Below, piece after piece: positions 2,065 through 17,357 of a stretch of DNA of 20,047 nucleotides. The DNA lies in the IMG/VR virus record IMGVR_UViG_3300026519_000079, positions 1 through 20,047 of that record; one strand, written 5' to 3'. A program made the translations under genes and the position numbers. Position 1 is the first letter of the stretch. Every line of letters starts with the position of its first letter. The DNA is from a virus. The notes below the pieces were generated by a model that was not told where the DNA came from, searched no databases, and saw nothing but the letters and a program-made list of their open reading frames with translations.

Positions 2065-2660
2065 GCTGGTTTTGGCAAGGACTGAAAATGCTGCGTTACG
2101 GCGTGATCTATGCCGATCCGCCGTGGTCATTCGAGACCTATTCTCAAAAGGGCAACGGGCGGGGCTGTGCGTATGACACCATGAGCCTTGAGGAGATCAG
2201 CGCGCTGCGCGTGGCCGACTTGGCCGCGCCGGATTGTATGTTGGCGATGTGGGTGACTGACCCGTTCTTGGAGCAGGCTTTCGGGGTTCTCGACAGCTGG
2301 GGATTTCAATATAAAACTGTGGGTTTCACATGGGCAAAAACCGCCAAGCACCTGCCCGAGCAGCTCGACACCGACAAGCTGTCGAGATATTTCCCGATTG
2401 GCACCGGCCACCACACCCGCGCCAATCCGGAAATGTGTCTGTTTGCCACGCGCGGCGCGCCCAAGCGGCTGAATGCCTCCACGCGCCAGTTGATACTGGC
2501 CCCGCGCCGCGAGCATTCGCGCAAGCCAGACGAGGCCAGAGAGGCGCTCGAGAGGCTTTATAGAGGCCCACGGGTGGAGCTGTTTGCCCGCCAAAAGGTC
2601 AAGGGCTGGGCCGCGTGGGGGAATGAAACCGGCAAGTTCGAGGTGCTGTCAGATGGCTGA
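2061..2660 (+). CDS. MT-A70 family adenine methyltransferase
   Basis: A 199-residue S-adenosylmethionine-dependent methyltransferase of the MT-A70 family. Bacterial and phage members methylate adenine at N6 in DNA. The catalytic DPPW motif is at residues 19-22 (VIYADPPWSF). It is followed by family-typical stretches: AYDTMSLEEI, a hydrophobic strand ending in MWVTDP, GFQYKTVGFTWAK, TGHHTRANPEMCLFATRG, and the C-terminal REHSRKPDEARE then PRVELFARQKVKGWAAWGNE. The length is normal and no key residue is missing. The start is the ATG at 2061 overlapping the gemA stop. No restriction enzyme gene is adjacent, so this is an orphan methyltransferase. It probably protects phage DNA from host restriction, a role that Mu gives to Mom. 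The target site cannot be read from the sequence. Confidence 0.92.
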   Translation: MSWFWQGLKMLRYGVIYADPPWSFETYSQKGNGRGCAYDTMSLEEISALRVADLAAPDCMLAMWVTDPFLEQAFGVLDSWGFQYKTVGFTWAKTAKHLPEQLDTDKLSRYFPIGTGHHTRANPEMCLFATRGAPKRLNASTRQLILAPRREHSRKPDEAREALERLYRGPRVELFARQKVKGWAAWGNETGKFEVLSDG

Positions 2661-3042
2661 ATATGTGAGCCTGACCACGCTTTGCGAGATCGTAGATGAT
2701 GGACCAGCCCTGCGGCTGGTTTCTGCGCATGGTGGCCGGCGTGTTTATGTGCCCGGCAAGCTGACCGATGACCATGATCTGGTAAAGGTGATGGGCTACG
2801 AGGCCGCGCTGGCGCTGGTGCGCTATTTCTCCAAGGAGGAGACCGGCGGGGTGGAGATCGAGCTGCCGATGGGGCCAACCGGTGTGTTTGGCCAATATCG
2901 CCGCCGCCTTGCCAAGGCCGTGGCTGAAGGTGGCTCGGAGCAGGATATTGCGCGGCGTGTGGGCGTGCATGGCCGCACCGTGCGGCGCGAACGGCGGCGG
3001 CAACGCCAAGAGGTTGACCCAAATCAGGGAGATTTGTTTTGA
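2653..3042 (+). CDS. Mor/C-like middle/late transcription activator
   Basis: A 129-residue protein, about the size of Mu Mor and C. These activators bind a dyad-symmetric site upstream of promoters with poor -35 boxes and recruit RNA polymerase. The N-terminal half resembles the Mor dimerisation region: GGRRVYVPGKLTDDHDLVKVMGYE, AALALVRYF, then a GGVEIELP strand. The C-terminal half has a helix-turn-helix pattern: GGSEQDIARRVGVHGRTVRRERRR, with a strongly basic recognition helix. The ATG at 2653 overlaps the methyltransferase by eight bases. It is the only regulator in the window and lies just before the late operons, so it is the best candidate for binding the palindromes at 3827 and 11248. 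I cannot tell whether it combines the Mor and C roles. Similarity to Mor is by pattern, so confidence is moderate. Confidence 0.72.
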   Translation: MAEYVSLTTLCEIVDDGPALRLVSAHGGRRVYVPGKLTDDHDLVKVMGYEAALALVRYFSKEETGGVEIELPMGPTGVFGQYRRRLAKAVAEGGSEQDIARRVGVHGRTVRRERRRQRQEVDPNQGDLF

Positions 3043-3251: not shown

Positions 3252-3827
3252 ATGACTGATATTGGGAGAATTATTGAAGGTTTACGGACAGCGGCATTGG
3301 ATAATGCGCGCGCCGCTTTCTATCCAGATGGACCCGTGGTGATAACGGGCGGAAATTACCTTTATGATTTCGTAAAAGAAAGCAATCTGATTGAGGGCAT
3401 TCAGCGCGACCCCACACTTCCAGAAGTGCAAGCCCATCTTGACTTGATCAGCGGCGATGACATTTCCGCTGACAAGCTGAAAGCTTTCGTTGATGTTATT
3501 CAGCCCGGGGCCAAACTGCGTATGGGTACAAATATGAATGTGCGGGTGGGCGCTCACCGTCCAATCTCTGGCGGGCCGCAGGTGATGATCCAGCTCAACG
3601 AGATATTGAGCGACATTCGCACCTCGCACCCTTTCGAAATTTACTGCCGCTATGAAACCCTGCACCCGTTTATGGATGGCAATGGCCGCTCTGGCCGTGC
3701 ACTGTGGCTGGGGATGATGATCCAGAAGCTGGGCGAGCTCCCAAGGTCTTTTCTGAAGACGTTCCATTATCAGGCGCTGGCGATGCATGACCGCCGTCAG
3801 AAATTACGCGACTCAACCGCCAATTAG
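3252..3827 (+). CDS. Fic-domain protein (putative AMP transferase), with N-terminal inhibitory motif
   Basis: A 191-residue single-domain Fic protein. Fic enzymes usually transfer AMP, or another nucleotide-derived group, from a nucleotide to a hydroxyl on a target protein. The core motif HPFMDGNGRSGR at residues 138-149 is complete: catalytic H138, acidic D142 for Mg binding, and R146/R149 for phosphate binding. Upstream, SNLIEG at residues 44-49 fits the inhibitory pattern (S/T)xxxE(G/N), with E48 as the glutamate that blocks ATP; an inhibitory helix N-terminal to the core in the same chain is typical of class II Fic proteins. VRVGAHRPISGGP at 97-109 fits the target-binding flap region. The ATG at 3252 has AAAGGA seven bases upstream. 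Codon use looks more AT-rich than its neighbours, suggesting a recently added moron gene. The stop TAG runs into the late operator. The target is unknown. Confidence 0.9.
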   Translation: MTDIGRIIEGLRTAALDNARAAFYPDGPVVITGGNYLYDFVKESNLIEGIQRDPTLPEVQAHLDLISGDDISADKLKAFVDVIQPGAKLRMGTNMNVRVGAHRPISGGPQVMIQLNEILSDIRTSHPFEIYCRYETLHPFMDGNGRSGRALWLGMMIQKLGELPRSFLKTFHYQALAMHDRRQKLRDSTAN

Positions 3828-3842
3828 GACAGCTGTCCGGTT
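3825..3842. promoter_or_regulatory. putative late operator/promoter element upstream of lysis genes (Plys-like)
   Basis: TAGGACAGCTGTCCGGTT contains the perfect 12-bp palindrome GGACAGCTGTCC (3827-3838). Exactly the same 18 bases occur at 11246-11263 before the capsid operon. In Mu the C-activated late promoters Plys and PI occupy the same two places and use a dyad activator site. No convincing -35 box follows, as expected for an activator-dependent promoter, and no -10 box could be assigned with confidence. The probable ligand is the Mor/C-like protein at 2653-3042. Confidence 0.65.
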
Positions 3843-3872
3843 GTATTCCTGAATGTAAGAAAGAGTAGCTTC

Positions 3873-3902
3873 GAGCCAGACAATGGCACGGGGCTTTTTT
3901 TT
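3873..3902 (+). terminator. weak terminator-like hairpin with T-run before the endolysin gene
   Basis: AGCC (3874-3877) can pair with GGCT (3892-3895), extended by a G-T wobble, and eight T bases (3895-3902) run straight into the endolysin ATG. The stem is only four to five pairs with a 14-base loop. It might end part of the middle transcript or attenuate late transcription, but it lies downstream of the presumed late operator, so late RNA would have to read through it. Confidence 0.25.
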
Positions 3903-4769
3903 ATGCAAGTATCTCAACGACTGACTAAATTTGTGGCGGCGGAGGAAGGCGTGGTGACGCGCGCGTATCGGGACCCCGTGGGGATTTTAACGATCGGGGT
4001 CGGGCACACCTCGGCGGCGGGTGCGCCAGAGGTCGTGGTGGGCATGACCATCACGCGCGAGCAGGCGTTTGACATCCTGATGGTGGATTTGCGCAAGTTC
4101 ATGGCGCGCTGCGAAACCGCCATGCCCCGCGCGATGGATTTCGAGATTGAAGGCGCAACTTCGTTTGATTTTAACACGGGCGCAATCCACAAAGCCAGCT
4201 GGGTGAAGTTCTGGTCGGTAGGTGATGACAAGCAGGCGCGGGGGCGGTTTTTGCTGTGGAACAAAGCGGGCGGCAAGCGGCTGCGCGGGCTGGCGGCACG
4301 GCGGGAGCGCGAGGCGGATATCATCTTTTTGAACAAGTGGCCGGGTGGAGGCAATGATGCTAGCACCTCCAAGTACGACCCCGATCTAGCGCTACAGCTT
4401 ATTGAACTAGGTCACCTTCGTAGGCTACCCGACGCGCCAAAGAGCCTCCGCCAATTTGGCGCTTCAGATGTTGTGAGCGCTGTGGAGGCATTTCAGGTGA
4501 AACACAATCTTGTGGCGGATGGCATCGTCGGCCCCGCCACGCGCGCAACCTTGCAGCGGACCTTGGCGGCCAAGCGGGCCACCCGAGCCAGCGGGGCTGC
4601 GGGGCTTGCAACGGGTGGTGGCACTTTGCCACTAGATTCGATCAACAGCACCACGGCGCTGGCCATTTCAGCAAGTGTGATCGTGGCGGGCCTGTTGCTG
4701 GGCTGGGTCTATCGCAACCGTGGCCGCTTGTTTGGCATCCGCGCAAAAATCACAGATGGAGAGGTTTGA
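3903..4769 (+). CDS. endolysin: GH24 lysozyme with peptidoglycan-binding domain and C-terminal membrane segment
   Basis: A 288-residue muralytic enzyme that cleaves the glycan strands of peptidoglycan at host lysis. Residues 10-150 are a GH24 (T4 lysozyme-type) domain with the catalytic triad spaced E15-x8-D24-x5-T30, then SFDFNTGAIHKASW and WNKAGGKRLRGLAARRERE, both typical. Residues about 185-225 form a PG_binding_1-like repeat (VEAFQVKHNLVADGIVGPATRATLQ). Residues about 251-270 are one strongly hydrophobic helix followed by YRNRGR, so the enzyme probably sits on the inner membrane. There is no N-terminal signal. Around 4360-4450 codon use changes (CTA, AGG and similar), which suggests the C-terminal half was joined on by recombination. 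The start at 3903 has only a weak ribosome-binding site. It is the first gene of the lysis operon. Confidence 0.92.
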   Translation: MQVSQRLTKFVAAEEGVVTRAYRDPVGILTIGVGHTSAAGAPEVVVGMTITREQAFDILMVDLRKFMARCETAMPRAMDFEIEGATSFDFNTGAIHKASWVKFWSVGDDKQARGRFLLWNKAGGKRLRGLAARREREADIIFLNKWPGGGNDASTSKYDPDLALQLIELGHLRRLPDAPKSLRQFGASDVVSAVEAFQVKHNLVADGIVGPATRATLQRTLAAKRATRASGAAGLATGGGTLPLDSINSTTALAISASVIVAGLLLGWVYRNRGRLFGIRAKITDGEV

Positions 4770-4957
4770 TGGAACACCTTAAACGCTTCCTGACGCCCAA
4801 AGTGCAGGGCCAAGTGCGCCACATTTTGTCGGCCATTGGCGCGGTTGTGGCCCAGAATGGCTATGCCTCGGCGGACAAGGTCGAGCTGTGGATCGGCGTC
4901 GTTATGGCGCTGATGGGGCTGGGCTGGAGCTGGTTTGCGCCGGAAAAAGCGCCATGA
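4769..4957 (+). CDS. small holin (Pam3-gp28-like)
   Basis: A 62-residue membrane protein. Holins gather in the inner membrane and open at a set time to release or activate the endolysin. The segment VRHILSAIGAVVAQNGYASA, then KVELWIGVVMALMGLGWSWF, resembles the Pam3-gp28 family of putative holins, with an amphipathic or hydrophobic first helix and a clear second transmembrane helix. The ATG at 4769 overlaps the endolysin stop (TGATG) and is preceded by GGAGAGG at 4758-4764; the TTG at 4766 is a poorer alternative. Position directly after the endolysin supports the call. The stop overlaps the next start as ATGA. Confidence 0.78.
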   Translation: MEHLKRFLTPKVQGQVRHILSAIGAVVAQNGYASADKVELWIGVVMALMGLGWSWFAPEKAP

Positions 4958-5193
4958 GCTGGCTGCTTTGGCTCAAGGGTTCCAAGCTTGCCCGCTGGAC
5001 CGGCTTTGCCATTTTGGCCACGGCGCTACTGAAGGTGCTGGAAGCCATGGGCGCTCGGCGGGGTAAAGCGGAGCTGATGGCCAAGCAAAACGATCAGCGG
5101 CTCAAAGAAACACAATTTGCAAAACAGGACTATAATGATGCGAAATCTCAAACGGACGACGATCTGGCTGACCGCCTTACTCGCGATCAGTAG
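4954..5193 (+). CDS. putative inner-membrane spanin (Rz-like)
   Basis: A 79-residue protein with one N-terminal transmembrane helix (about residues 15-34, WTGFAILATALLKVLEAMG) and a charged, helix-prone tail (AELMAKQNDQRLKETQFAKQ). This is the layout of an inner-membrane spanin, which bridges the periplasm to an outer-membrane lipoprotein and fuses the two membranes at the end of lysis. Sequence identity with known Rz proteins is not obvious, and it is shorter than most. The call rests on topology, on its place after the endolysin and holin, and on the lipoprotein gene that starts inside it in another frame at 5135, the usual Rz/Rz1 arrangement. The start at 4954 overlaps the holin stop. Confidence 0.65.
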   Translation: MSWLLWLKGSKLARWTGFAILATALLKVLEAMGARRGKAELMAKQNDQRLKETQFAKQDYNDAKSQTDDDLADRLTRDQ

Positions 5194-5362
5194 CTGCGCG
5201 CCTGCGCTGGCTGAATTCTGCGATGTGGCACAAGGCCCGATCCAGTTCAACAGTGCCGAGGCAGTGCCGCAGTTGCTCAGCCTTGGCGAGCGCGATGCGC
5301 TGGAGAAGATTGACGCCAACAACCGCGTGGGCGAGCGCACATGCGGGTGGGTGGTGCAATGA
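5135..5362 (+). CDS. putative outer-membrane spanin lipoprotein (Rz1-like)
   Basis: A 75-residue predicted lipoprotein. The basic start MMRNLKRT is followed by the hydrophobic stretch TIWLTALLA and a lipobox-like ISSC, with C21 as the lipidated residue after signal peptidase II cleavage. The mature part has two cysteines and the pattern FCDVAQGPIQF ... IDANNRVGERTCGW, which is seen in many small phage proteins in this position. ACAGGA at 5124-5129 serves as ribosome-binding site for the ATG at 5135; an ATG follows directly at 5138. The first 59 bases lie inside the putative Rz-like gene in a different frame. It would act with that gene's product in outer-membrane disruption. The stop overlaps the DUF2730 start (ATGA). 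Confidence 0.72.
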   Translation: MMRNLKRTTIWLTALLAISSCAPALAEFCDVAQGPIQFNSAEAVPQLLSLGERDALEKIDANNRVGERTCGWVVQ

Positions 5363-5703
5363 TACCGGACACAATTAAGGAATGGGGCGGGGCCATGGCT
5401 GTGGTGTTTTCCATCGGCGGCATTATCTATTCGTGGCTAACGCGGCGCAGCAAGGAAAACACCGAGACCATTGCCAAAATGGGCGAGGATATTTCCGGGC
5501 GCCTGAAGGTCATTGAAAAGAAGCTGATCGCCGATGATCGGCGGATCCAGCACCTTGAGGACAATTTCAAGCACCTGCCAACCAAAGAGCAGATTTCCGA
5601 GCTGAAGGTGGCGCTGACACAGGTCAGCACGACCGTTGATAGCACAAACCGCACGATAACACGGATGGAAACCGATATCCGTGAATTCAGAAAGACCAAG
5701 TGA
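5359..5703 (+). CDS. DUF2730 family protein (Mu gp25-like)
   Basis: A 114-residue protein with one N-terminal membrane helix (AMAVVFSIGGIIYSWL) followed by a long predicted coiled coil from about residue 35 to the end, rich in charged heptads (SGRLKVIEKKLIADDRRIQHLEDN). This matches DUF2730, the family of Mu gp25, which always lies between the lysis genes and the DNA packaging genes. Its function is not known. The start at 5359 (ATGATA) overlaps the preceding stop; the in-frame ATG at 5341 would overlap the lipoprotein gene by 22 bases and is less likely. The stop overlaps the next ATG. Confidence 0.82.
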   Translation: MIPDTIKEWGGAMAVVFSIGGIIYSWLTRRSKENTETIAKMGEDISGRLKVIEKKLIADDRRIQHLEDNFKHLPTKEQISELKVALTQVSTTVDSTNRTITRMETDIREFRKTK

Positions 5704-6005
5704 TGAACGAGATAAACGACATTGTGGCTGCCGAGCGCGCCAAGCTCAACATCTTGCTGGCGCTGCATGAGGAGGCTTCCTACAGCTCCAACGAGCAGCT
5801 GTTGCAGGCATGGCTGGATGCCACCGGCGGTGTGCCCGTGGCGCGCGCCTTTGTGCGCCAGTGCCTGCTGGAGCTTGAGGAACTGAGGGCGGTCAAGATC
5901 AAGGTGGCAGGTGAGTTGATGATTGCGACCATCACAGAGGCGGGGCAGGAGCATGTGCAGGGCCGCGCCATCATCAAGGGCGTGTTGCGCCCGCCGGTGC
6001 TGTGA
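5703..6005 (+). CDS. Mu gp26-like protein, winged-helix type
   Basis: A 100-residue protein placed as Mu gp26 is, between the DUF2730 and DUF3486 genes. The central part (LLQAWLDATGGVPVARAFVRQCLLELEELRAV) reads as a helix-turn-helix followed by a beta wing (KIKVAGELMIATITEAGQEHVQG), which is why such proteins are often labelled ArsR-like. It is more likely to help DNA packaging than to regulate transcription, but that is inference from position. Start and stop both overlap their neighbours by one base or more (TGATG at 5701-5705 and 6003-6007), so translation is coupled. Confidence 0.72.
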   Translation: MNEINDIVAAERAKLNILLALHEEASYSSNEQLLQAWLDATGGVPVARAFVRQCLLELEELRAVKIKVAGELMIATITEAGQEHVQGRAIIKGVLRPPVL

Positions 6006-6604
6006 TGGCGGCGGCGCGACGGCTAAAAGGGCGGGGGCGACTGTCGTCGATTGATCAGCTGCCCGAGGAATGCTCGGAGCTGATTGCGTGGGCCAATCAG
6101 GAGCTCGCAAAGCGTGAGCGCACCCAGCTAGAAATATATATGGAATTCGTTGGTAAGCTTGACGACATCCAGCGCGTGCACAATCTGGAATTTACCACCC
6201 CCTCCAGCTCGGCGTTTAACCGGTATTCGATGCGCCAAGCGGCCATGATGCGCCGCTTGGAAGACACCCGCTCCATTGCCAAAACCATTTCAGAGCGCTT
6301 TGACGCCGAAACGTCGGATGATCTGACCTTGATGGCGGCGGAAGCAATCAAGTCTCTGGTGTTTGAACTGCTGGAAACGGGCGGCGAGGCGGGGATCAGC
6401 CCCAAAGGCGCGATGGAGCTGGCCAATGCACTGCGCGCGGCCACCGCCGCCCAGTCGGTCAGCTCGGAGCGCCGCCGCAAGGTGCAGGCGGAGTTTGATG
6501 CTGGCGCGGAAGCCGCGATCGAGAAAGTGGCCAAGGCCAAGGGCTGGACTGCCAAAACCGCCAATGCCATCAAGGCTGAAGTGCTGGGAGTGAAAGCAAA
6601 ATGA
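6005..6604 (+). CDS. DUF3486 family protein (Mu gp27-like, probable small terminase)
   Basis: A 199-residue, mostly helical protein of the DUF3486 family. The family marks include the N-terminal RGRLSSIDQLPEECSELIAWA, which resembles a helix-turn-helix DNA-binding region, the TQLEIYMEF segment, and SSSAFNRYSMR. Its place directly before the large terminase is the reason gp27-like proteins are considered the small terminase subunit, which recognises phage DNA and loads it on the motor. For a Mu-like phage this would select the prophage end for headful packaging. The ATG at 6005 overlaps the previous stop; the stop overlaps the terminase ATG (ATGA). Confidence 0.88.
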   Translation: MAAARRLKGRGRLSSIDQLPEECSELIAWANQELAKRERTQLEIYMEFVGKLDDIQRVHNLEFTTPSSSAFNRYSMRQAAMMRRLEDTRSIAKTISERFDAETSDDLTLMAAEAIKSLVFELLETGGEAGISPKGAMELANALRAATAAQSVSSERRRKVQAEFDAGAEAAIEKVAKAKGWTAKTANAIKAEVLGVKAK

Positions 6605-8214
6605 CCGGCCCTATTGATAAGCAGCCGCTCGGTGAGGTGATCGGGAATTTGCCGCCTGATCTGTCTGGCGTCGATATTTTGCTCCCCTATCAAAAAGACC
6701 TGCTGGAAGCGACCGCGCGCTCCAGTTTGGTGGTCACTGATAAAAGCCGCCGAGTCGGTATGACATGGGCGGCGGGGGCTGATGCGGTTCTCACCAGCGC
6801 CTTACAGCGCTCTGAGGGCGGGCAGGATACCTTCTATCTGGGCTATAATCTTGATATGGCGCGGGAGTTTATTGATACCTGTGCTGAATGGGCCAAAGCC
6901 TTTGCCGAGGCCTGCTCGGATGTGGAGGAGATGATATTCGAAGATGAAGGCGAAAAGGGCGAGCGGTTGTCGATCAAGGCGTTCCGTATTACCTTTGCCT
7001 CGGGCTTCCAGATACAGGCGCTGTCCAGCAATGCGCGCTCCCTGCGCGGGCGGCAGGGCTTTGTGATCTTGGACGAGTTTGCCTTCCACGATGATGCCCC
7101 CGCGCTGCTGAAGGCCGCGCTGGCGCTCTTGATCTGGGCAGGCCGTGTGCTGGTGATCTCCACACATAATGGCGACGACAACCCCTTTAACGAGCTAATT
7201 CAGGAGGTGCGCGAAGGGCGACGCCCCGGCTTGATTGTGCGGGTCACTTTTGAGGATGCGATTGAACAGGGACTATATCGCCGAATTTGCCTGGTAAAGG
7301 GGATCGAGTGGAGCGCGGAGGCTGAAGCTAAATGGGCGGAGGAAATCCGTGGGTTTTACGGCTCGAATGCCGAAGAGGAGCTGGACTGTATCCCCTCAAA
7401 AGGCACAGGCGCGTGGTTGACATCGGCCCAGATCGAGGCGGCGATGGATGAAAGCCTGCCGGTGTTGCGGATTGAGTGTCCCAAGGGCTTCGAGATGGAG
7501 CCGGAGGCGGTGCGAAAATCCTTTGTGAATGACTGGATCGAAGAACACCTCGAGCCGGTGATAGAAACATTGAGCAAGAACAACAAACACGGTTATGGGC
7601 TGGATTTCGGCCGTTCTGGTGACCTTTCGGTTATGGTGCCGATTGAAGAACTGCCTGATTTACGCATGCGTGTGCCTTTTGTTATCGAAATGCGCAACGT
7701 GCCGTTTCGCCAGCAGGAGCAGCTGGCATTTTATACGGCAGACCATTTGCCGAATTTTGTTGCCGGCAAGCACGACGCGCGCGGCAATGGTCATGCTTTG
7801 GCGGAATTTGCACAGCAGCGCTACGGCGCGCGGGTCGAGGCTGTGATGATGACCCAAAAGTGGTATCTGGAGAATATGCCGCCCCTGAAGGCCGACCACG
7901 AGGACCAGAATATCAGCTATCCAAAGGACGCGGACCTCAAAAACGATATGCGCGTGGTGGCGGTGGTGCGGGGCATCCCGATGGTGCCGGAAGGCAAATC
8001 CAAAGGGGCCGATGGTGGCCAGCGCCACGGTGATTTTGCGGTGTCTCTGGCCTTGGCCCGCGCCGCCATCAAGGGTGAGTGGCATGAATACGGCTACCGC
8101 GCGGCCTCTGGTGACAGGCGGGCCGAACAGAAACGGCATTCGTTTCGGCGGGGCGGGGCCAATGACATATTTAGCAAAGCTCTGAATGGGGCCCGCATTC
8201 GCGGAGGACTTTGA
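6601..8214 (+). CDS. large terminase subunit (Mu gp28-like)
   Basis: A 537-residue packaging motor with an ATPase and a nuclease domain. In the ATPase part, VVTDKSRRVGMTW at residues 44-56 is the terminase-type Walker A loop, and FVILDEF at 154-160 is Walker B with D158 and catalytic E159. VISTHNGDD near residue 182 fits the coupling motif. The nuclease domain begins near residue 331 with YGLDFGRSGDLSV, where D335 is the probable first metal ligand, and the late segment HGDFAVSLALARAA supplies another acidic residue. The length is normal for Mu gp28 relatives. It pumps DNA through the portal encoded next door and cuts it when the head is full. Both ends overlap or abut neighbouring genes. Confidence 0.94.
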   Translation: MTGPIDKQPLGEVIGNLPPDLSGVDILLPYQKDLLEATARSSLVVTDKSRRVGMTWAAGADAVLTSALQRSEGGQDTFYLGYNLDMAREFIDTCAEWAKAFAEACSDVEEMIFEDEGEKGERLSIKAFRITFASGFQIQALSSNARSLRGRQGFVILDEFAFHDDAPALLKAALALLIWAGRVLVISTHNGDDNPFNELIQEVREGRRPGLIVRVTFEDAIEQGLYRRICLVKGIEWSAEAEAKWAEEIRGFYGSNAEEELDCIPSKGTGAWLTSAQIEAAMDESLPVLRIECPKGFEMEPEAVRKSFVNDWIEEHLEPVIETLSKNNKHGYGLDFGRSGDLSVMVPIEELPDLRMRVPFVIEMRNVPFRQQEQLAFYTADHLPNFVAGKHDARGNGHALAEFAQQRYGARVEAVMMTQKWYLENMPPLKADHEDQNISYPKDADLKNDMRVVAVVRGIPMVPEGKSKGADGGQRHGDFAVSLALARAAIKGEWHEYGYRAASGDRRAEQKRHSFRRGGANDIFSKALNGARIRGGL

Positions 8215-8216
8215 AC

Positions 8217-9752
8217 ATGAGAAAACCAACCTTGCTCGACCGTTACGGTCGCCCCGTAAAGCGCGCCGCTCTGAAGAAAGAGCACGCCGCAGCCCAGACA
8301 GTGGGCGTGCGCTCGCCCACCACCGGCCACCCCGCCGCTAACATTGACCCGACCCGCATGGCCTCCATCCTGCGCGAGGCTGAAAGCGGCCAGCCGTTGC
8401 AGTTTTTGGAGCTGGCCGAGGTGATGGAGGAGCGCGATCCGCATTATGCCGCCGTGCTGGGCACCCGCAAGCGCTCTGTCAGCCAGATTGATATCACGGT
8501 GGATGCGGCCAGTGACGAGCCGCACCACGCGGCCCATGCCGATATGGTGCGCGACTGGCTGAAGCGCGACGAGCTTTCCGACGAGATTTTCCATATGATG
8601 GATGCGGTTGGCAAAGGCTTTTCTATCACCGAGATTATTTGGGATACCTCGACCGGCCAATGGCAGCCGCAGCGCTTGGAACACCGCGACCAGCGCTGGT
8701 TTACCTTTGATCGGGTGGATCTGCGCACACCGTTGTTGCGCACCGAAAACGGCTATGAGCCGCTCCAGCCCTTCAAATATATAAACACGGTGATTTCGGC
8801 CAAATCCGGCCTGCCCATTCGCGGTGGGACATCGCGGATTGGGGCGTGGGGCTGGATGTTCAAGATGTTCACCCAGCGGGATTGGGCGATATTCACCCAG
8901 AACTTTGGCCAGCCGATCCGCGTTGGCAAATACCAGAACGGCGCGACCGAAGAGGATAAGGAGACCCTGTTTAGAGCGGTGCAGAACATCGCGGGCGATT
9001 GCGCGGCCATCATGCCGGCAAGCATGGACATCGAGTTTATCGAGGCTGTGAAACTCGGTAGTAGTTTGAGCCTTTACACAGATCGATCTAATTGGTTGGA
9101 CCAGCAAATGTCCAAGTTGGTCTTGGGCCAGACCACGACTACCGATGCTATTTCGGGCGGGCACGCGGTAAGCCAGGAACACCGGCAAGTGCAGGAGGAT
9201 ATAGAGCGCGCCGATGCCAAGGTGATATCCGGCACGCTCAATCGCGATCTTGTTCGGCCGTGGATCGACCTCGAATTCGGGCCACAAAAACTCTACCCGC
9301 GCATTGTCATTGCGCGGCCCGAGCAGAAGGATGTGCAGCTGATCGTGGAATCGGTGGAAAAGCTGGTGCCGCTGGGGCTGAAGGTCTCGACCGCAACCAT
9401 GCAGGGCCTGTTGGGCCTGCCGGAGACGGAAGCCGGGGAAGAGCTGCTCGGGGTGAGCGCGCCTGCACCTGAACTGCCAATGCCTGCCCCGCAGGTTTCG
9501 CTTCAGGCCGCCCAAAGTGGCGCGAAAACGGTGGCGGAGCAGTTGGCGAAAGATGCCGCCGATATTGCCGAGGCTCCGGCCACGGCGATGATTGACACGG
9601 TGCGCAAATTGCTGGGCGAGGTCAAAACGCTGGAAGAGTTCCGCGACCGGCTGCTGGAGCTGGACCAAAGCATGAGCGAGGCCGATTTGGCAGAAGCACT
9701 TCGATTGGCTATGGTATGGGCAGAACTCACCGGGGAGCGTGACCTTGCCTGA
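8217..9752 (+). CDS. DUF935 portal protein (Mu gp29-like)
   Basis: A 511-residue DUF935 protein, the portal of Mu-like phages. Twelve copies form the ring at one capsid vertex through which DNA enters and leaves. Family-like segments are LEAVEMEERDPHYAAVLGTRKRSV-type helices (AEVMEERDPHYAAVLGTRK), GKGFSITEIIW, LEHRDQRWFTFD, WMFKMFTQRDWAIFTQNFGQP and LVLGQTTTTDA. The C-terminal 80 residues are alanine/glutamate-rich and probably flexible or helical. GGAGG at 8203-8207 lies nine bases before the ATG at 8217, which is preferred over the TTG at 8211 that overlaps the terminase stop. The 3' end overlaps the MuF gene. Confidence 0.94.
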   Translation: MRKPTLLDRYGRPVKRAALKKEHAAAQTVGVRSPTTGHPAANIDPTRMASILREAESGQPLQFLELAEVMEERDPHYAAVLGTRKRSVSQIDITVDAASDEPHHAAHADMVRDWLKRDELSDEIFHMMDAVGKGFSITEIIWDTSTGQWQPQRLEHRDQRWFTFDRVDLRTPLLRTENGYEPLQPFKYINTVISAKSGLPIRGGTSRIGAWGWMFKMFTQRDWAIFTQNFGQPIRVGKYQNGATEEDKETLFRAVQNIAGDCAAIMPASMDIEFIEAVKLGSSLSLYTDRSNWLDQQMSKLVLGQTTTTDAISGGHAVSQEHRQVQEDIERADAKVISGTLNRDLVRPWIDLEFGPQKLYPRIVIARPEQKDVQLIVESVEKLVPLGLKVSTATMQGLLGLPETEAGEELLGVSAPAPELPMPAPQVSLQAAQSGAKTVAEQLAKDAADIAEAPATAMIDTVRKLLGEVKTLEEFRDRLLELDQSMSEADLAEALRLAMVWAELTGERDLA

Positions 9753-10968
9753 TCCAAAACCGTTTGGCGTCCAGCCGCTGGATGCAATTGCCTTTCTGAA
9801 GAACAAGCTGAATGTGCCGACCGCTCGCTGGAATGACATTTGGCAGGATATGCACGGCGCGGCCTTCATGGTGGCGGGGGCGCAAAAGGCGGCGCTGATC
9901 GAGGATTTCCATGCGGCGGTGACCTCGGCAATCGAGAACGGCTCCACGCTGGCCACGTTTCGCAAAGACTTTGACCAGATCGTGGCCAAGCATGGCTGGG
10001 ATTACAACGGCAGCCGCAACTGGCGTTCCAAGATCATTTATCGGACCAATATGGATATGGCGCGGTCAGCGGGCCAGTGGGCGTCTATCCAGCGCACCAA
10101 AAAGAGCCGGCCATATATCCGATATGATGCCGTGATGGATGGCCGGACGCGGCCACAGCATAGAGCGTGGAATGATATCGTGCTGCCTGTCGATCATCCC
10201 TTCTGGCAGACACATTACCCGCCGAACGGCTGGTTATGCCGCTGCCAGCCGCGCAGCCTGTCGGAGCGCGATCTCAAACGGCAAGGGTTGAAGGTCTCTG
10301 ATGACCCGAAGATTATCTGGGAAGATCGGGAGGTAAAGAGGGGTGATCAGATTGCCACCATTCGCGTTCCTCAAGGTATTCATTCCGGATTCGCATATAA
10401 TCCGGGCTTGGCGGGTTTTGGCCGAGGCCCGAATGCCGATGCCTTGGCCCGCTGGGGGTATATGGACCCGTTAGATATTCCCGGTGCTCTTACCGCCAAA
10501 GAATACGGCGATCTTAATTTGGAGCAGGCAGGCTATCGCATGATGCCTATAGCCAAAACCCAAGAACAGGCCCACGATATTTTGCGGGAGGTCATCGGTG
10601 GTGAAGAGGCTGTTTTTATAGACCCGACAGGAAGCCGAATACGCGTGACGCAGGCTTTGGTCGATCACTTTTGGCAAAATAATGACCCCGCAAAAATGAC
10701 GCGCGAGCGGTTTTTCGGGTTGATCCCGGACTTGATAGAAAACCCCGCCGAAATCTGGGTGGGGTTCGCGCGATCAAATGTGACCCGCCAAGTTTTTTTG
10801 CGGCGCAGGTTTGTCAAATTCATCAAGCTCGACAAAAGCCGCACTTTGATTATGGTGGCCGACGAGGTGCATGGGGAATGGCTAGGCGTCACATTTTACC
10901 ACGGCAAAAAGAGCGCTCTGAAGAATGCGCGGATTGGTCTGAGGATATATAGTAGGGATGGGAACTAA
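9745..10968 (+). CDS. MuF minor head protein fused to a C-terminal PBECR2-like nuclease domain
   Basis: A 407-residue, two-part protein. The N-terminal 180 residues are the Mu F / SPP1 gp7 head morphogenesis domain: IIYRTNMDMARSAGQW, then YDAVMDGRTRPQHRAWND and PFWQTHYPPNGWLCRCQP. This minor head protein sits near the portal. The C-terminal part, about residues 270-405, resembles PBECR2, one of the nuclease domains of the Barnase/EndoU/colicin/RelE fold described as fused to MuF: DPTGSRIRVTQALVDHFW, RFFGLIPDLIENPAEIWVGF, RRRFVKFIK and TFYHGKKSALKNARIGLRIY. Such MuF fusions are known as phage-delivered toxins or polyvalent proteins. The TTG at 9745 is chosen because GGGGAG (9732-9737) sits seven bases before it; the GTG at 9739 is an alternative two codons longer. 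The toxin part looks more AT-rich than the head part. No immunity gene is recognised nearby. Confidence 0.85.
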   Translation: MPDPKPFGVQPLDAIAFLKNKLNVPTARWNDIWQDMHGAAFMVAGAQKAALIEDFHAAVTSAIENGSTLATFRKDFDQIVAKHGWDYNGSRNWRSKIIYRTNMDMARSAGQWASIQRTKKSRPYIRYDAVMDGRTRPQHRAWNDIVLPVDHPFWQTHYPPNGWLCRCQPRSLSERDLKRQGLKVSDDPKIIWEDREVKRGDQIATIRVPQGIHSGFAYNPGLAGFGRGPNADALARWGYMDPLDIPGALTAKEYGDLNLEQAGYRMMPIAKTQEQAHDILREVIGGEEAVFIDPTGSRIRVTQALVDHFWQNNDPAKMTRERFFGLIPDLIENPAEIWVGFARSNVTRQVFLRRRFVKFIKLDKSRTLIMVADEVHGEWLGVTFYHGKKSALKNARIGLRIYSRDGN

Positions 10969-11297
10969 GGCAACCGGCTCTGCCCCGTCGCACCGGTGCA
11001 CTTGTAGGGAACCGGCCCAAGCGCCTCCGAGCAGCCCAAATATAAGTCGAATGACCCAAAATTCAAGCCCCGCTCTTTTTGCCCCGTGGAGGCGGCGGCT
11101 TGCGCCACCAGCCACACTCCCCCGAATTTTGCGCGCATAGCCGTTCTTAGCGCTCTTATTCGGCTCTTAGTGGCCTTTGGGGCGCGGCGGCGCGGGGTAA
11201 ATTGCAGGCTAGCGGCTTGTTTGGATGATTTGGGGAAATATCCGATAGGACAGCTGTCCGGTTAGATCGGGATATCCGCTTGGGCCAGTTTAGGCCC
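10969..11297. other. 330-base gap between MuF-nuclease gene and capsid operon
   Basis: I see no convincing gene on either strand; the short open frames here have unnatural composition and no ribosome-binding sites. It holds a 10-bp palindrome GCACCGGTGC (10990-10999), three near-repeats G(C/T)TCTTA(G/T) at 11143-11150, 11152-11159 and 11163-11170, a five-pair stem AGCCG/CGGCT around the first two of these repeats (11139-11143 with 11161-11165 approximately), the late operator at 11246-11263 and a hairpin over the protease start (11281-11298). No T-run terminator was found. Confidence 0.6.
11246..11263. promoter_or_regulatory. putative late operator/promoter element upstream of capsid genes (PI-like)
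   Basis: The 18 bases TAGGACAGCTGTCCGGTT are identical to those at 3825-3842, including the perfect palindrome GGACAGCTGTCC (11248-11259). The element lies 35 bases before the protease ATG, the position of the C-dependent promoter PI of phage Mu. Flanking sequence differs between the two copies, so what is conserved is the protein-binding site rather than a larger duplication. A TATCCG at 11273-11278 could serve as a poor -10 box. Confidence 0.65.
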
Positions 11298-12395
11298 ATG
11301 GCAAAAGGTAAAGCAACATGTTTCAGCGGCAGCATCGCACTTCAGGCTTCGGGGCTTCCCGAGGTCACCTCGGGCGTGGTGCCCGAGTGGATTCATATTC
11401 TGCCCGCTGGCGCGGCGCGCACGGTTGATGGCCGTGGCCCCTACATCGCCAAAGACCCCGGCAAGATTATCGCCGCTTCCATGCAGGAGAGCGGCGGCAA
11501 GATCGTGGTCGATGAAAACCACGCCACCGACATTGCCGGCAAGGCCGGATTGCCTGCCCGTGCGGCGGGCTGGGTGGTTGGCTTGCAATCCCGTGCAGAT
11601 GGCATCTGGGCGCAGGTCGAATGGACGAAAGAAGGAGAGGCGCTGCTTTCGGAGAAATCATATCGCGGCGTGTCACCGGTCATCGTCCACGATGAAGCCA
11701 ACGAGGTGCTGCGCATTTTGCGTGTCAGCCTGACCAATAAACCAAATCTGCGCGGCATGGTCGCGCTTCACTCCCAAACCGAAATGGAGACTATCATGGA
11801 CCTGAGTGCCCTGATTGAGCTGTTGGGCCTTGAGGAAGGCGCAACAGAAGAGGACGTGACGGCAGCGATCAAAAAGCTGTCGGACGCGAAAGGACAGGCC
11901 ACGGAGCCGGATGGCGACGAGGCTGCCATGCAGTCGGCGCTGTCGGACATCGCCAAGAAGCTGGGGGCGGGCGTGAAGCCCGAAACCACGGCGATCTGCT
12001 CGGCGCTGGATGCGGTGCTGGACCCGAAGGCCAGTGTGCCGATGGCGGCGTTCACGGCGTTGCAGACCGAATTTGCAGCCCTGCAATCCGGCCTTGGCCG
12101 CAAAGATGCCGAGGGGGCCGTGGATGCCGCCATCAAGGCAGGCAAGCCCGGCGTGAAGCCGATCCGCGATCAATATATCGCCATGCACATGCAGGATCCT
12201 GAAGGCACGCAAAAGCTGCTGGACGCTCTGCCAAGTATCACCGGTGGCGGCCCGAGCGGCATCACAGCGCCACAATCCGCCGATGGTAATGGCCTGACGC
12301 CCGCGCAGGGTGAGGTTGCGGCCATGCTGGGCGTCGATCCCAAGGCATATGCAAAAACCCTCGCGGCTGAAGCCGCCAAGCAGGAGGCGCTCTAA
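11298..12395 (+). CDS. Mu I-like capsid maturation protease (with in-frame scaffold region)
   Basis: A 365-residue protein of the Mu-like protease I family. It cleaves the scaffold during head maturation. The first 175 residues are the protease part: VPEWIHILPAG, GRGPYIAKDP, IVVDENHATDIAGKAGLPARAAGWVVGL, WAQVEWTKEGEALLSEKSYRGVSPV and LRVSLTNKPNLRGM, all close to the family pattern. From about residue 167 it becomes helical, alanine- and glutamate-rich and charged, the scaffold part. The ATG at 11298 is used because homology-like residues start soon after, but it lacks a good ribosome-binding site and its A lies in a hairpin; a TTG at 11280 is possible. It is the first gene of the capsid operon. 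Confidence 0.9.
   Translation: MAKGKATCFSGSIALQASGLPEVTSGVVPEWIHILPAGAARTVDGRGPYIAKDPGKIIAASMQESGGKIVVDENHATDIAGKAGLPARAAGWVVGLQSRADGIWAQVEWTKEGEALLSEKSYRGVSPVIVHDEANEVLRILRVSLTNKPNLRGMVALHSQTEMETIMDLSALIELLGLEEGATEEDVTAAIKKLSDAKGQATEPDGDEAAMQSALSDIAKKLGAGVKPETTAICSALDAVLDPKASVPMAAFTALQTEFAALQSGLGRKDAEGAVDAAIKAGKPGVKPIRDQYIAMHMQDPEGTQKLLDALPSITGGGPSGITAPQSADGNGLTPAQGEVAAMLGVDPKAYAKTLAAEAAKQEAL
11796..12395 (+). CDS. nested scaffold protein (Mu Z-like), internal in-frame start
   Basis: Within the protease gene, GGAG at 11786-11789 lies six bases before an in-frame ATG at 11796. Starting there gives a 199-residue protein beginning MDLSALIELLGLEEGATEED that contains only the helical, acidic, alanine-rich scaffold part and shares the protease stop. 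In Mu, gene Z is made in this way from the 3' half of gene I and serves as the internal scaffold around which the major capsid protein assembles. The good ribosome-binding site exactly at the domain boundary supports the same arrangement; expression is not proven. Confidence 0.72.
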   Translation: MDLSALIELLGLEEGATEEDVTAAIKKLSDAKGQATEPDGDEAAMQSALSDIAKKLGAGVKPETTAICSALDAVLDPKASVPMAAFTALQTEFAALQSGLGRKDAEGAVDAAIKAGKPGVKPIRDQYIAMHMQDPEGTQKLLDALPSITGGGPSGITAPQSADGNGLTPAQGEVAAMLGVDPKAYAKTLAAEAAKQEAL

Positions 12396-16674: not shown

Positions 16675-17001
16675 ATGTTCAAACTCGTTCCTGCCACCTT
16701 CAAGCATGAAGTCACCATCAAAGTGCCTGTGGATGGTGGCTTTGAAAAACAAACCATCGACGTGACATATATTGCCCTGCCGATATCCGAGACCGAGGAG
16801 CTTTTGGAGGGCGACCGCGATGGCATGAAGGCCTACGTGCGTAAAATTGTGCACCGCATGGACGGCGTAATCGGTGAAGATGACGAGGTGCTGGAGTGGA
16901 ATAATGATCTGGCGCGCCAGTTGCTTGATGTGCCTTTTGTGTTCACCGCCGTTCTGGATGGCTATCGCACGGCGCTGAATGAGGCGCGGGTAAAAAACTA
17001 A
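16675..17001 (+). CDS. tail assembly chaperone (gpG-type, short product)
   Basis: A 108-residue protein in the lambda gpG position, between the tail tube and tape measure genes. Such chaperones coat the tape measure protein and bring tube subunits to it. The sequence opens with a strand-rich region (KHEVTIKVPVDGGFEKQTIDVTYIALP), followed by helices (ISETEELLEGDRDGMKAYVRKIV; NNDLARQLLDVPFVFTAVLDGYRTAL), which fits the phage tail assembly chaperone family. It ends ...GTA AAA AAC TAA, and the last codons form a slippery site leading to the longer frameshifted product. The ATG at 16675 has AAGGA at 16663-16667. Confidence 0.86.
   Translation: MFKLVPATFKHEVTIKVPVDGGFEKQTIDVTYIALPISETEELLEGDRDGMKAYVRKIVHRMDGVIGEDDEVLEWNNDLARQLLDVPFVFTAVLDGYRTALNEARVKN
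16992..16998 (+). promoter_or_regulatory. programmed -1 ribosomal frameshift site A AAA AAC
   Basis: In the zero frame the codons read GTA AAA AAC TAA, so A AAA AAC has the exact X XXY YYZ phase for simultaneous slippage, immediately before the stop. After a -1 shift, reading goes on at CTA (16998-17000) and stays open to the stop at 17355-17357. A possible stem CCGAGG (17002-17007) with CCTTGG (17024-17029), including one G-T pair, lies three bases downstream. Confidence 0.87.
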
Positions 17002-17357
17002 CCGAGGCGGCGCGGCACTGGGCCCTTGGCGGGTCAGCTGACCATACCGAGGCGCTGGCTGACCTTGAGCGGATGGGCGCGCCGCCCGAGGTGATTGCGG
17101 GTTTTATCGCCGACAAAGAGCGCGATGAGAGATTTGGCATATGGCCGGAAAACTGGAACGCCGCCCGCGCCTTTCTTGCCAGTGCCACCCAGTGGCGGGT
17201 GGCTGTGGGCATGAGTGGTGGCGGGCGCATCGGCTTTGATTATGCGGGCGTTTGCGCCGGGCTGAAAATGGAAGGGCTGGACCTTAGCCCGGAAGATTGG
17301 GCCGGATTTCGCCACATGGAAATAGCGGCGCTCAATGCGCTAAATGAGGGACAATAA
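16998..17357 (+). CDS. DUF1799 frameshift extension of the tail assembly chaperone (gpGT-type)
   Basis: This 119-residue frame is probably translated as a C-terminal extension of the 108-residue chaperone after a -1 shift at 16992-16998, giving a 227-residue fusion like lambda gpGT. It is open from the slip site, and there is no good independent ribosome-binding site; an ATG at 17073 would cut into the conserved N-terminal part. The sequence LTEAARHWAL, then GIWPENWNAARAFLASATQWRVAVG and GRIGFDYAGVCAGLKMEG, matches DUF1799, a family often encoded here. The T-type extension normally binds the tape measure protein. The stop overlaps the tape measure start (TAATG). Confidence 0.85.
   Translation, partial: LTEAARHWALGGSADHTEALADLERMGAPPEVIAGFIADKERDERFGIWPENWNAARAFLASATQWRVAVGMSGGGRIGFDYAGVCAGLKMEGLDLSPEDWAGFRHMEIAALNALNEGQ

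Follow-up and report, generated by a model that had tools for sequence, protein, structure and literature searches.

Comparison of the two late operons of this Mu-like phage with those of its relatives suggests, at a probability of about 0.9, that one late activator of the Mor/C family, encoded at 2653–3042, has two identical 18-mers as its operators and switches both operons through them. The window, as we call the whole stretch of DNA analysed, is an entire IMG/VR record of 20,047 bp and represents part of a phage genome; the activator, Fic-like, endolysin and I genes, both 18-mers and both candidate -10 elements lie on its plus strand. A dimer of the activator would bind the dyad GGACAGCTGTCC about 44 bp upstream of each transcription start, at the -35 position, and is predicted to activate rather than repress. 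Once bound, the protein would recruit or activate the RNA polymerase of the host at a -10 element that is weak in both promoters (TAGCTT in Plys and CAGTTT in PI). Two operons, one for lysis and packaging from 3.9 kb and one for the capsid from 11.3 kb, would thereby be turned on together. The original prediction, which had taken the two sites for activator operators of the counterparts of Mu Plys and PI, is supported by the recurrence of the sites in other phages, by their fixed spacing to a -10-like hexamer and by a spelling that is coupled to the activator.

The two sites and the genes around them

The 18-mer TAGGACAGCTGTCCGGTT is present, letter for letter, at 3825–3842 (candidate late operator 1, O-lys) and at 11246–11263 (candidate late operator 2, O-I). 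No third copy exists in the 20,047-bp window at up to three mismatches, where shuffled sequences predict 0.01. The 12-bp core of both copies is a perfect dyad (3827–3838 and 11248–11259), while the sequences flanking them are unrelated to each other. The earlier description of identical copies, a perfect dyad core and unrelated flanks was thus exact. The only further match to the dyad in the window at up to two mismatches is GGTCAGCTGACC (17032–17043), which carries two mismatches and is intergenic among the tail genes, between an ORF ending at 17001 and an ORF starting at 17073; 0.77 matches of this type are predicted by chance in the window.

Genes near the sites form a Mu-like set that comprises GemA, an MT-A70 methylase, the activator, a Fic-like insert, lysozyme and the F and I proteins. 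The activator gene (2653–3042) is C-like and a relative of Mor/C (phrog_836, late transcriptional activator, E = 7e-20), with a C-terminal helix-turn-helix. Between it and the lysis operon lies a Fic/DOC-like gene at 3252–3827 (Pfam Fic, E = 1.2e-5), an insertion with the appearance of a moron, and the first 18-mer opens on the TAG stop codon (3825–3827) of this gene. Placement of the first copy ahead of the lysis genes, as originally described, therefore holds with the qualification that the insert separates it from the activator gene. The first gene of the lysis operon encodes the endolysin (3903–4769; Pfam Phage_lysozyme, E = 5e-24). On the capsid side, the F-like head protein (9739–10968) has a C-terminal PBECR2 RNase/toxin-like domain (Pfam E = 1.3e-22), and the I gene (11298–12395) encodes the Mu-like protease/scaffold (Pfam Mu-like_Pro, E = 1.5e-57).

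Recurrence of the paired sites in other phages

Relatives were collected with an alignment of portal proteins as bait, which retrieved 160 loci. A single-protein search of viral contigs with the window activator gave zero relatives, a search of viral contigs for the exact 18-mer gave zero matches, and the sequences of a five-activator alignment were too diverged for use as a query. The dyad is present in L089 (portal 79% identical) at 5596 and 13066 and in the more distant L016 (portal 56% identical) at 1774 and 9803, in each case at the places homologous to those in the window, and L092 carries two close variants of it. In the related loci, 2.49 Mb in all, occurrences of the 12-mer are confined to the window, L089 and L016, two in each, against an expectation of 0.15. 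Copies scattered within genes of the relatives, which the original prediction had named as evidence against itself, were looked for and not found. L089 has TTGGACAG at both of its sites and the window has TAGGACAG at both, which indicates that the flanking base has changed jointly.

A similar arrangement extends over a much wider set of phages. Profiles placed the activator and I genes in 94 loci, and a dyad common to the gap behind the activator and the gap before I exceeds the 95% level of shuffled sequences in 72 of these mostly partial loci and the 99.9% level in 57. Five more loci (the window, L089, L016, L092 and L025) were paired under a wider search, because their lysis-side site is at a greater distance downstream of the activator gene; no convincing pair was obtained in the other 17 of the 94. 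Shuffles were used as the null for this search, since an earlier null of random cross-phage pairs was too conservative, operators being common to related phages. Site spelling varies among phages. The named phages RS1, ThpP1, RhkP1 and PeaP1 each carry a paired motif of their own, and a motif common to both places is likewise seen in D3112, YPCBV-1 and related gammaproteobacterial contigs. A third site was found in none of 77 loci, including the full genomes L003, L004 and L006, the other loci and the window being partial. In Rhodovulum P1 and Pelagibaca P1 (L005 and L006), both late promoters carry CCCCCGAAAC..CATCCCC followed by GTGGCAC or ATGGCAT; no clear dyad is seen in these operators, and it is possible that they are read in a different mode.

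The suggestion that the sites define the late regulon of a new Mu-like group survives as regards the regulon, but one group with one operator does not describe it: the operators fall into at least 13 classes and are widespread, and the window operator appears to be one spelling among these. Judged by its genes and sites, the regulon is a Mu-type C regulon, a kind of system already known from Mu.

Promoter architecture and the start of the I gene

Alignment of the promoters on the dyad centre reveals a hexamer, (C/G)AT..T, at +32 to +37 in both, with an unconserved intervening spacer. An A at +33 together with a T at +37 is present on the lysis side in 33 and on the I side in 31 of 50 non-redundant phages (binomial p < 1e-32), and the same pair reaches at most 12% at other offsets outside the dyad and the edge. 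In the window, the candidate -10 of PI, CAGTTT (11286–11291), lies precisely 32–37 bp past the dyad centre. The candidate -10 of Plys, TAGCTT (3866–3871), lies 33 bp past the centre and so misses the family register by 1 bp, whereas the TAGCTT of L016 is precisely in register. If the hexamer is the -10 element, the dyad centre would fall at about -44 and the dyad would take the place of a -35 element; an ordinary sigma-70 promoter was found in neither of the two window gaps. An inverted repeat, TGGGCC-AGTTTA-GGCCCA (11281–11298), covers the candidate -10 of PI, ends at the I start codon and is mostly retained in L089.

For the I gene, the most likely start codon is ATG 11298 rather than TTG 11280 of the ORF list. 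An in-frame ATG of the I gene is located 42–47 bp past the dyad centre in 47 of the 50 non-redundant phages, and the I start given in GenBank for RS1, ThpP1 and PeaP1 is that ATG. A Shine-Dalgarno core precedes only one of 47 I genes, compared with 24 of 47 lysis-side genes, and in the window the -10-like hexamer is situated about 7 bp ahead of the ATG (11286–11300). The I transcript is therefore probably leaderless, its predicted start coinciding with ATG 11298; this is the simplest reading of the ATG position and the missing Shine-Dalgarno core.

Correspondence between the operators and the activator

The spelling of the I-side operator tracks the activator gene 8 kb away and not the neighbouring I gene. 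Operator distance is correlated with activator distance (Mantel r = 0.60; partial 0.58, p = 0.001); no such correlation is seen for the distance of the adjacent I protein (partial -0.02). Mantel tests overstate significance for related sequences, but a count on trees agrees in direction. Thirteen changes on the activator tree account for the 13 classes of I-side operator, where 12 is the minimum and shuffling gives 35; the I tree requires 20. Ranked by helix-turn-helix, the activators nearest to that of the window (L089, L105, L097, L016 and L092) all come with (G/T)GACA..TGTC on the I side. The association of residues with bases gave no clean recognition code.

A dyad by itself does not identify the dimer that binds it, and the sites could be operators of another regulator, either a phage repressor or a host factor. 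The CI-like repressor gene lies outside the window, and the comparison of operators with regulators covered the activator and the I protein. We consider another regulator very unlikely, as the spelling tracks both the gene of the activator and the helix-turn-helix of that protein; widely differing spellings among phages of one host family, Rhodobacteraceae, are at odds with a host factor. It is also conceivable that the dyads are intrinsic terminators that end the upstream operons, since a GC-rich inverted repeat with a T tract behind it is seen in many of the relatives (for example GCCCCCAAACCGTTGGGGGCGTTTTT in L162). However, the window dyad has neither a loop nor a T run, no terminator-like site on the plus strand coincides with either copy, the two copies fold no better than shuffled sequences (z = -1.0 and -0.25), and TTTT occurs there in only 12–16 of 50 phages. 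Terminators would moreover not be expected to match in spelling across 8 kb, to track the activator or to hold a fixed distance to a -10 element, and this explanation was rejected as scarcely plausible. That the window contains just two copies would suit a repeat that arose by chance or by a small, recent duplication. We regard such an origin as practically excluded: shuffles predict 0.01 copies, and the relatives L089 and L016, which refute it, retain the two copies at the two homologous places while the flanks are unrelated. Recognition by the 2653–3042 activator remains the reading that we adopt.

The activator and the late system of Mu

Mu C and Mor themselves match phrog_836 (E = 2e-11 and 1e-10), and hhalign against Mu C/Mor gives a probability of 94 (E = 1.3e-7) and aligns the C-terminal halves in register. 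Pfam Mor is matched by 20 of 56 relatives, the window protein being below its threshold, and the family profile matches the Mor chain 1rr7 weakly (E = 0.008). The AlphaFold monomer model of the activator has a mean pLDDT of 89.9. A PDB fold search with it returned helix-turn-helix matches only; the best Mor/C matches were non-significant (TM 0.29–0.31), which might be expected if the family is an intertwined dimer. By these profile comparisons, the 2653–3042 protein is a diverged Mor/C homologue. It has two GG-x3/4-(Y)-x-P units (27–34 and 64–72) where Mor/C have one, a possible internal duplication; by inspection, the extra GG-x3-Y-x-P unit, which Mu C lacks, is near the N terminus.

In Mu, the C protein recognises a dyad at four promoters, Plys, PI, PP and Pmom (PMC4287176); two of these, Plys and PI, have 10 bp in common, a spacer with a T stretch and a -10 that departs from the consensus (PMC4461284). 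As in the Mu C system, a homologous activator is encoded just ahead of the lysis genes, and dyad operators precede the lysis and I genes, upstream of a non-consensus -10. Unlike Mu with its four sites, two are found here, and the 77 loci yielded no further sites of the PP or Pmom kind. The operator spelling is unrelated to that of Mu, and Mu I has a purine-rich leader, whereas the I gene here is apparently leaderless. A second Mor-like protein, as in Mu, was not found in RS1, ThpP1 and PeaP1, and no Mor-to-C middle tier is therefore seen in these phages; RhkP1 has one weak second match. It has been stated that vB_ThpS-P1 and vB_PeaS-P1 lack the Mor transcription activator (PMC5488378). Both have the gene order and capsid genes of the window and a paired late motif each, and our analysis indicates, contrary to that report, that they do possess a diverged relative of Mor/C together with its two sites.

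A candidate clamp-binding tail

The last five codons of the activator (3025–3039) encode QGDLF, a candidate motif for binding the beta sliding clamp. A loose form of this tail, Q..[LM][FLI] or a six-residue variant near the C terminus, is present in 98 of 103 activators; the background in long ORFs is 5%. In the 68 activators that are less than 60% identical, Q is found in all and L in 65, and the linker from the helix-turn-helix to the tail varies from 7 to 49 residues. Five- and six-residue forms both occur (QLDLF, QLDLPF, QMPLPL). In B23 and L075 the tail reads QADMF, which is also the E. coli Pol III alpha motif; in Mu C it is QPDLF and in D3112 QSTLF. The pattern corresponds to the published beta-clamp motif (PMC11139829, PMC5371812). 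On the other hand, Mu C activates in vitro in an assay whose listed components do not include the clamp (PMC4461284). This activity counts against reading the tail as a clamp motif, as do the G at position 2 of the window tail and the presence of the strict form (Q-aliphatic-x-[L/M]-[F/L] or six-residue) in only 46 of the 103 activators. The literature searched, which leaves out most subscription papers, contains nothing that ties Mor or C to the clamp. We propose tentatively, with the balance slightly against it, that the activators carry a clamp motif and that host clamps on freshly replicated DNA would help them, coupling late transcription to replication. Late transcription of T4 proceeds through gp33/gp55 and the sliding clamp gp45 (PMC7892883). 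The proposed system would resemble gp33/gp55, purely as an analogy, in that DNA-bound late factors bear a C-terminal clamp-binding motif on a linker; it would differ in its proteins, which are unrelated to those of T4, and in the candidate partner, here the beta clamp of the host.

Significance

A two-copy repeat of one contig has led to a defined late regulon for Mu-like phages that infect Alphaproteobacteria, a large set that is for the most part unstudied and includes members reported to lack the activator. The approximately 13 operator classes with their cognate activators are a ready set for studying how a helix-turn-helix activator reads DNA, and could be used for building orthogonal activator/promoter pairs. 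For transposing phages, the tail motif offers a direct test of a possible tie between late transcription and replication; a second testable point is that the transcript of the capsid operon is apparently leaderless.
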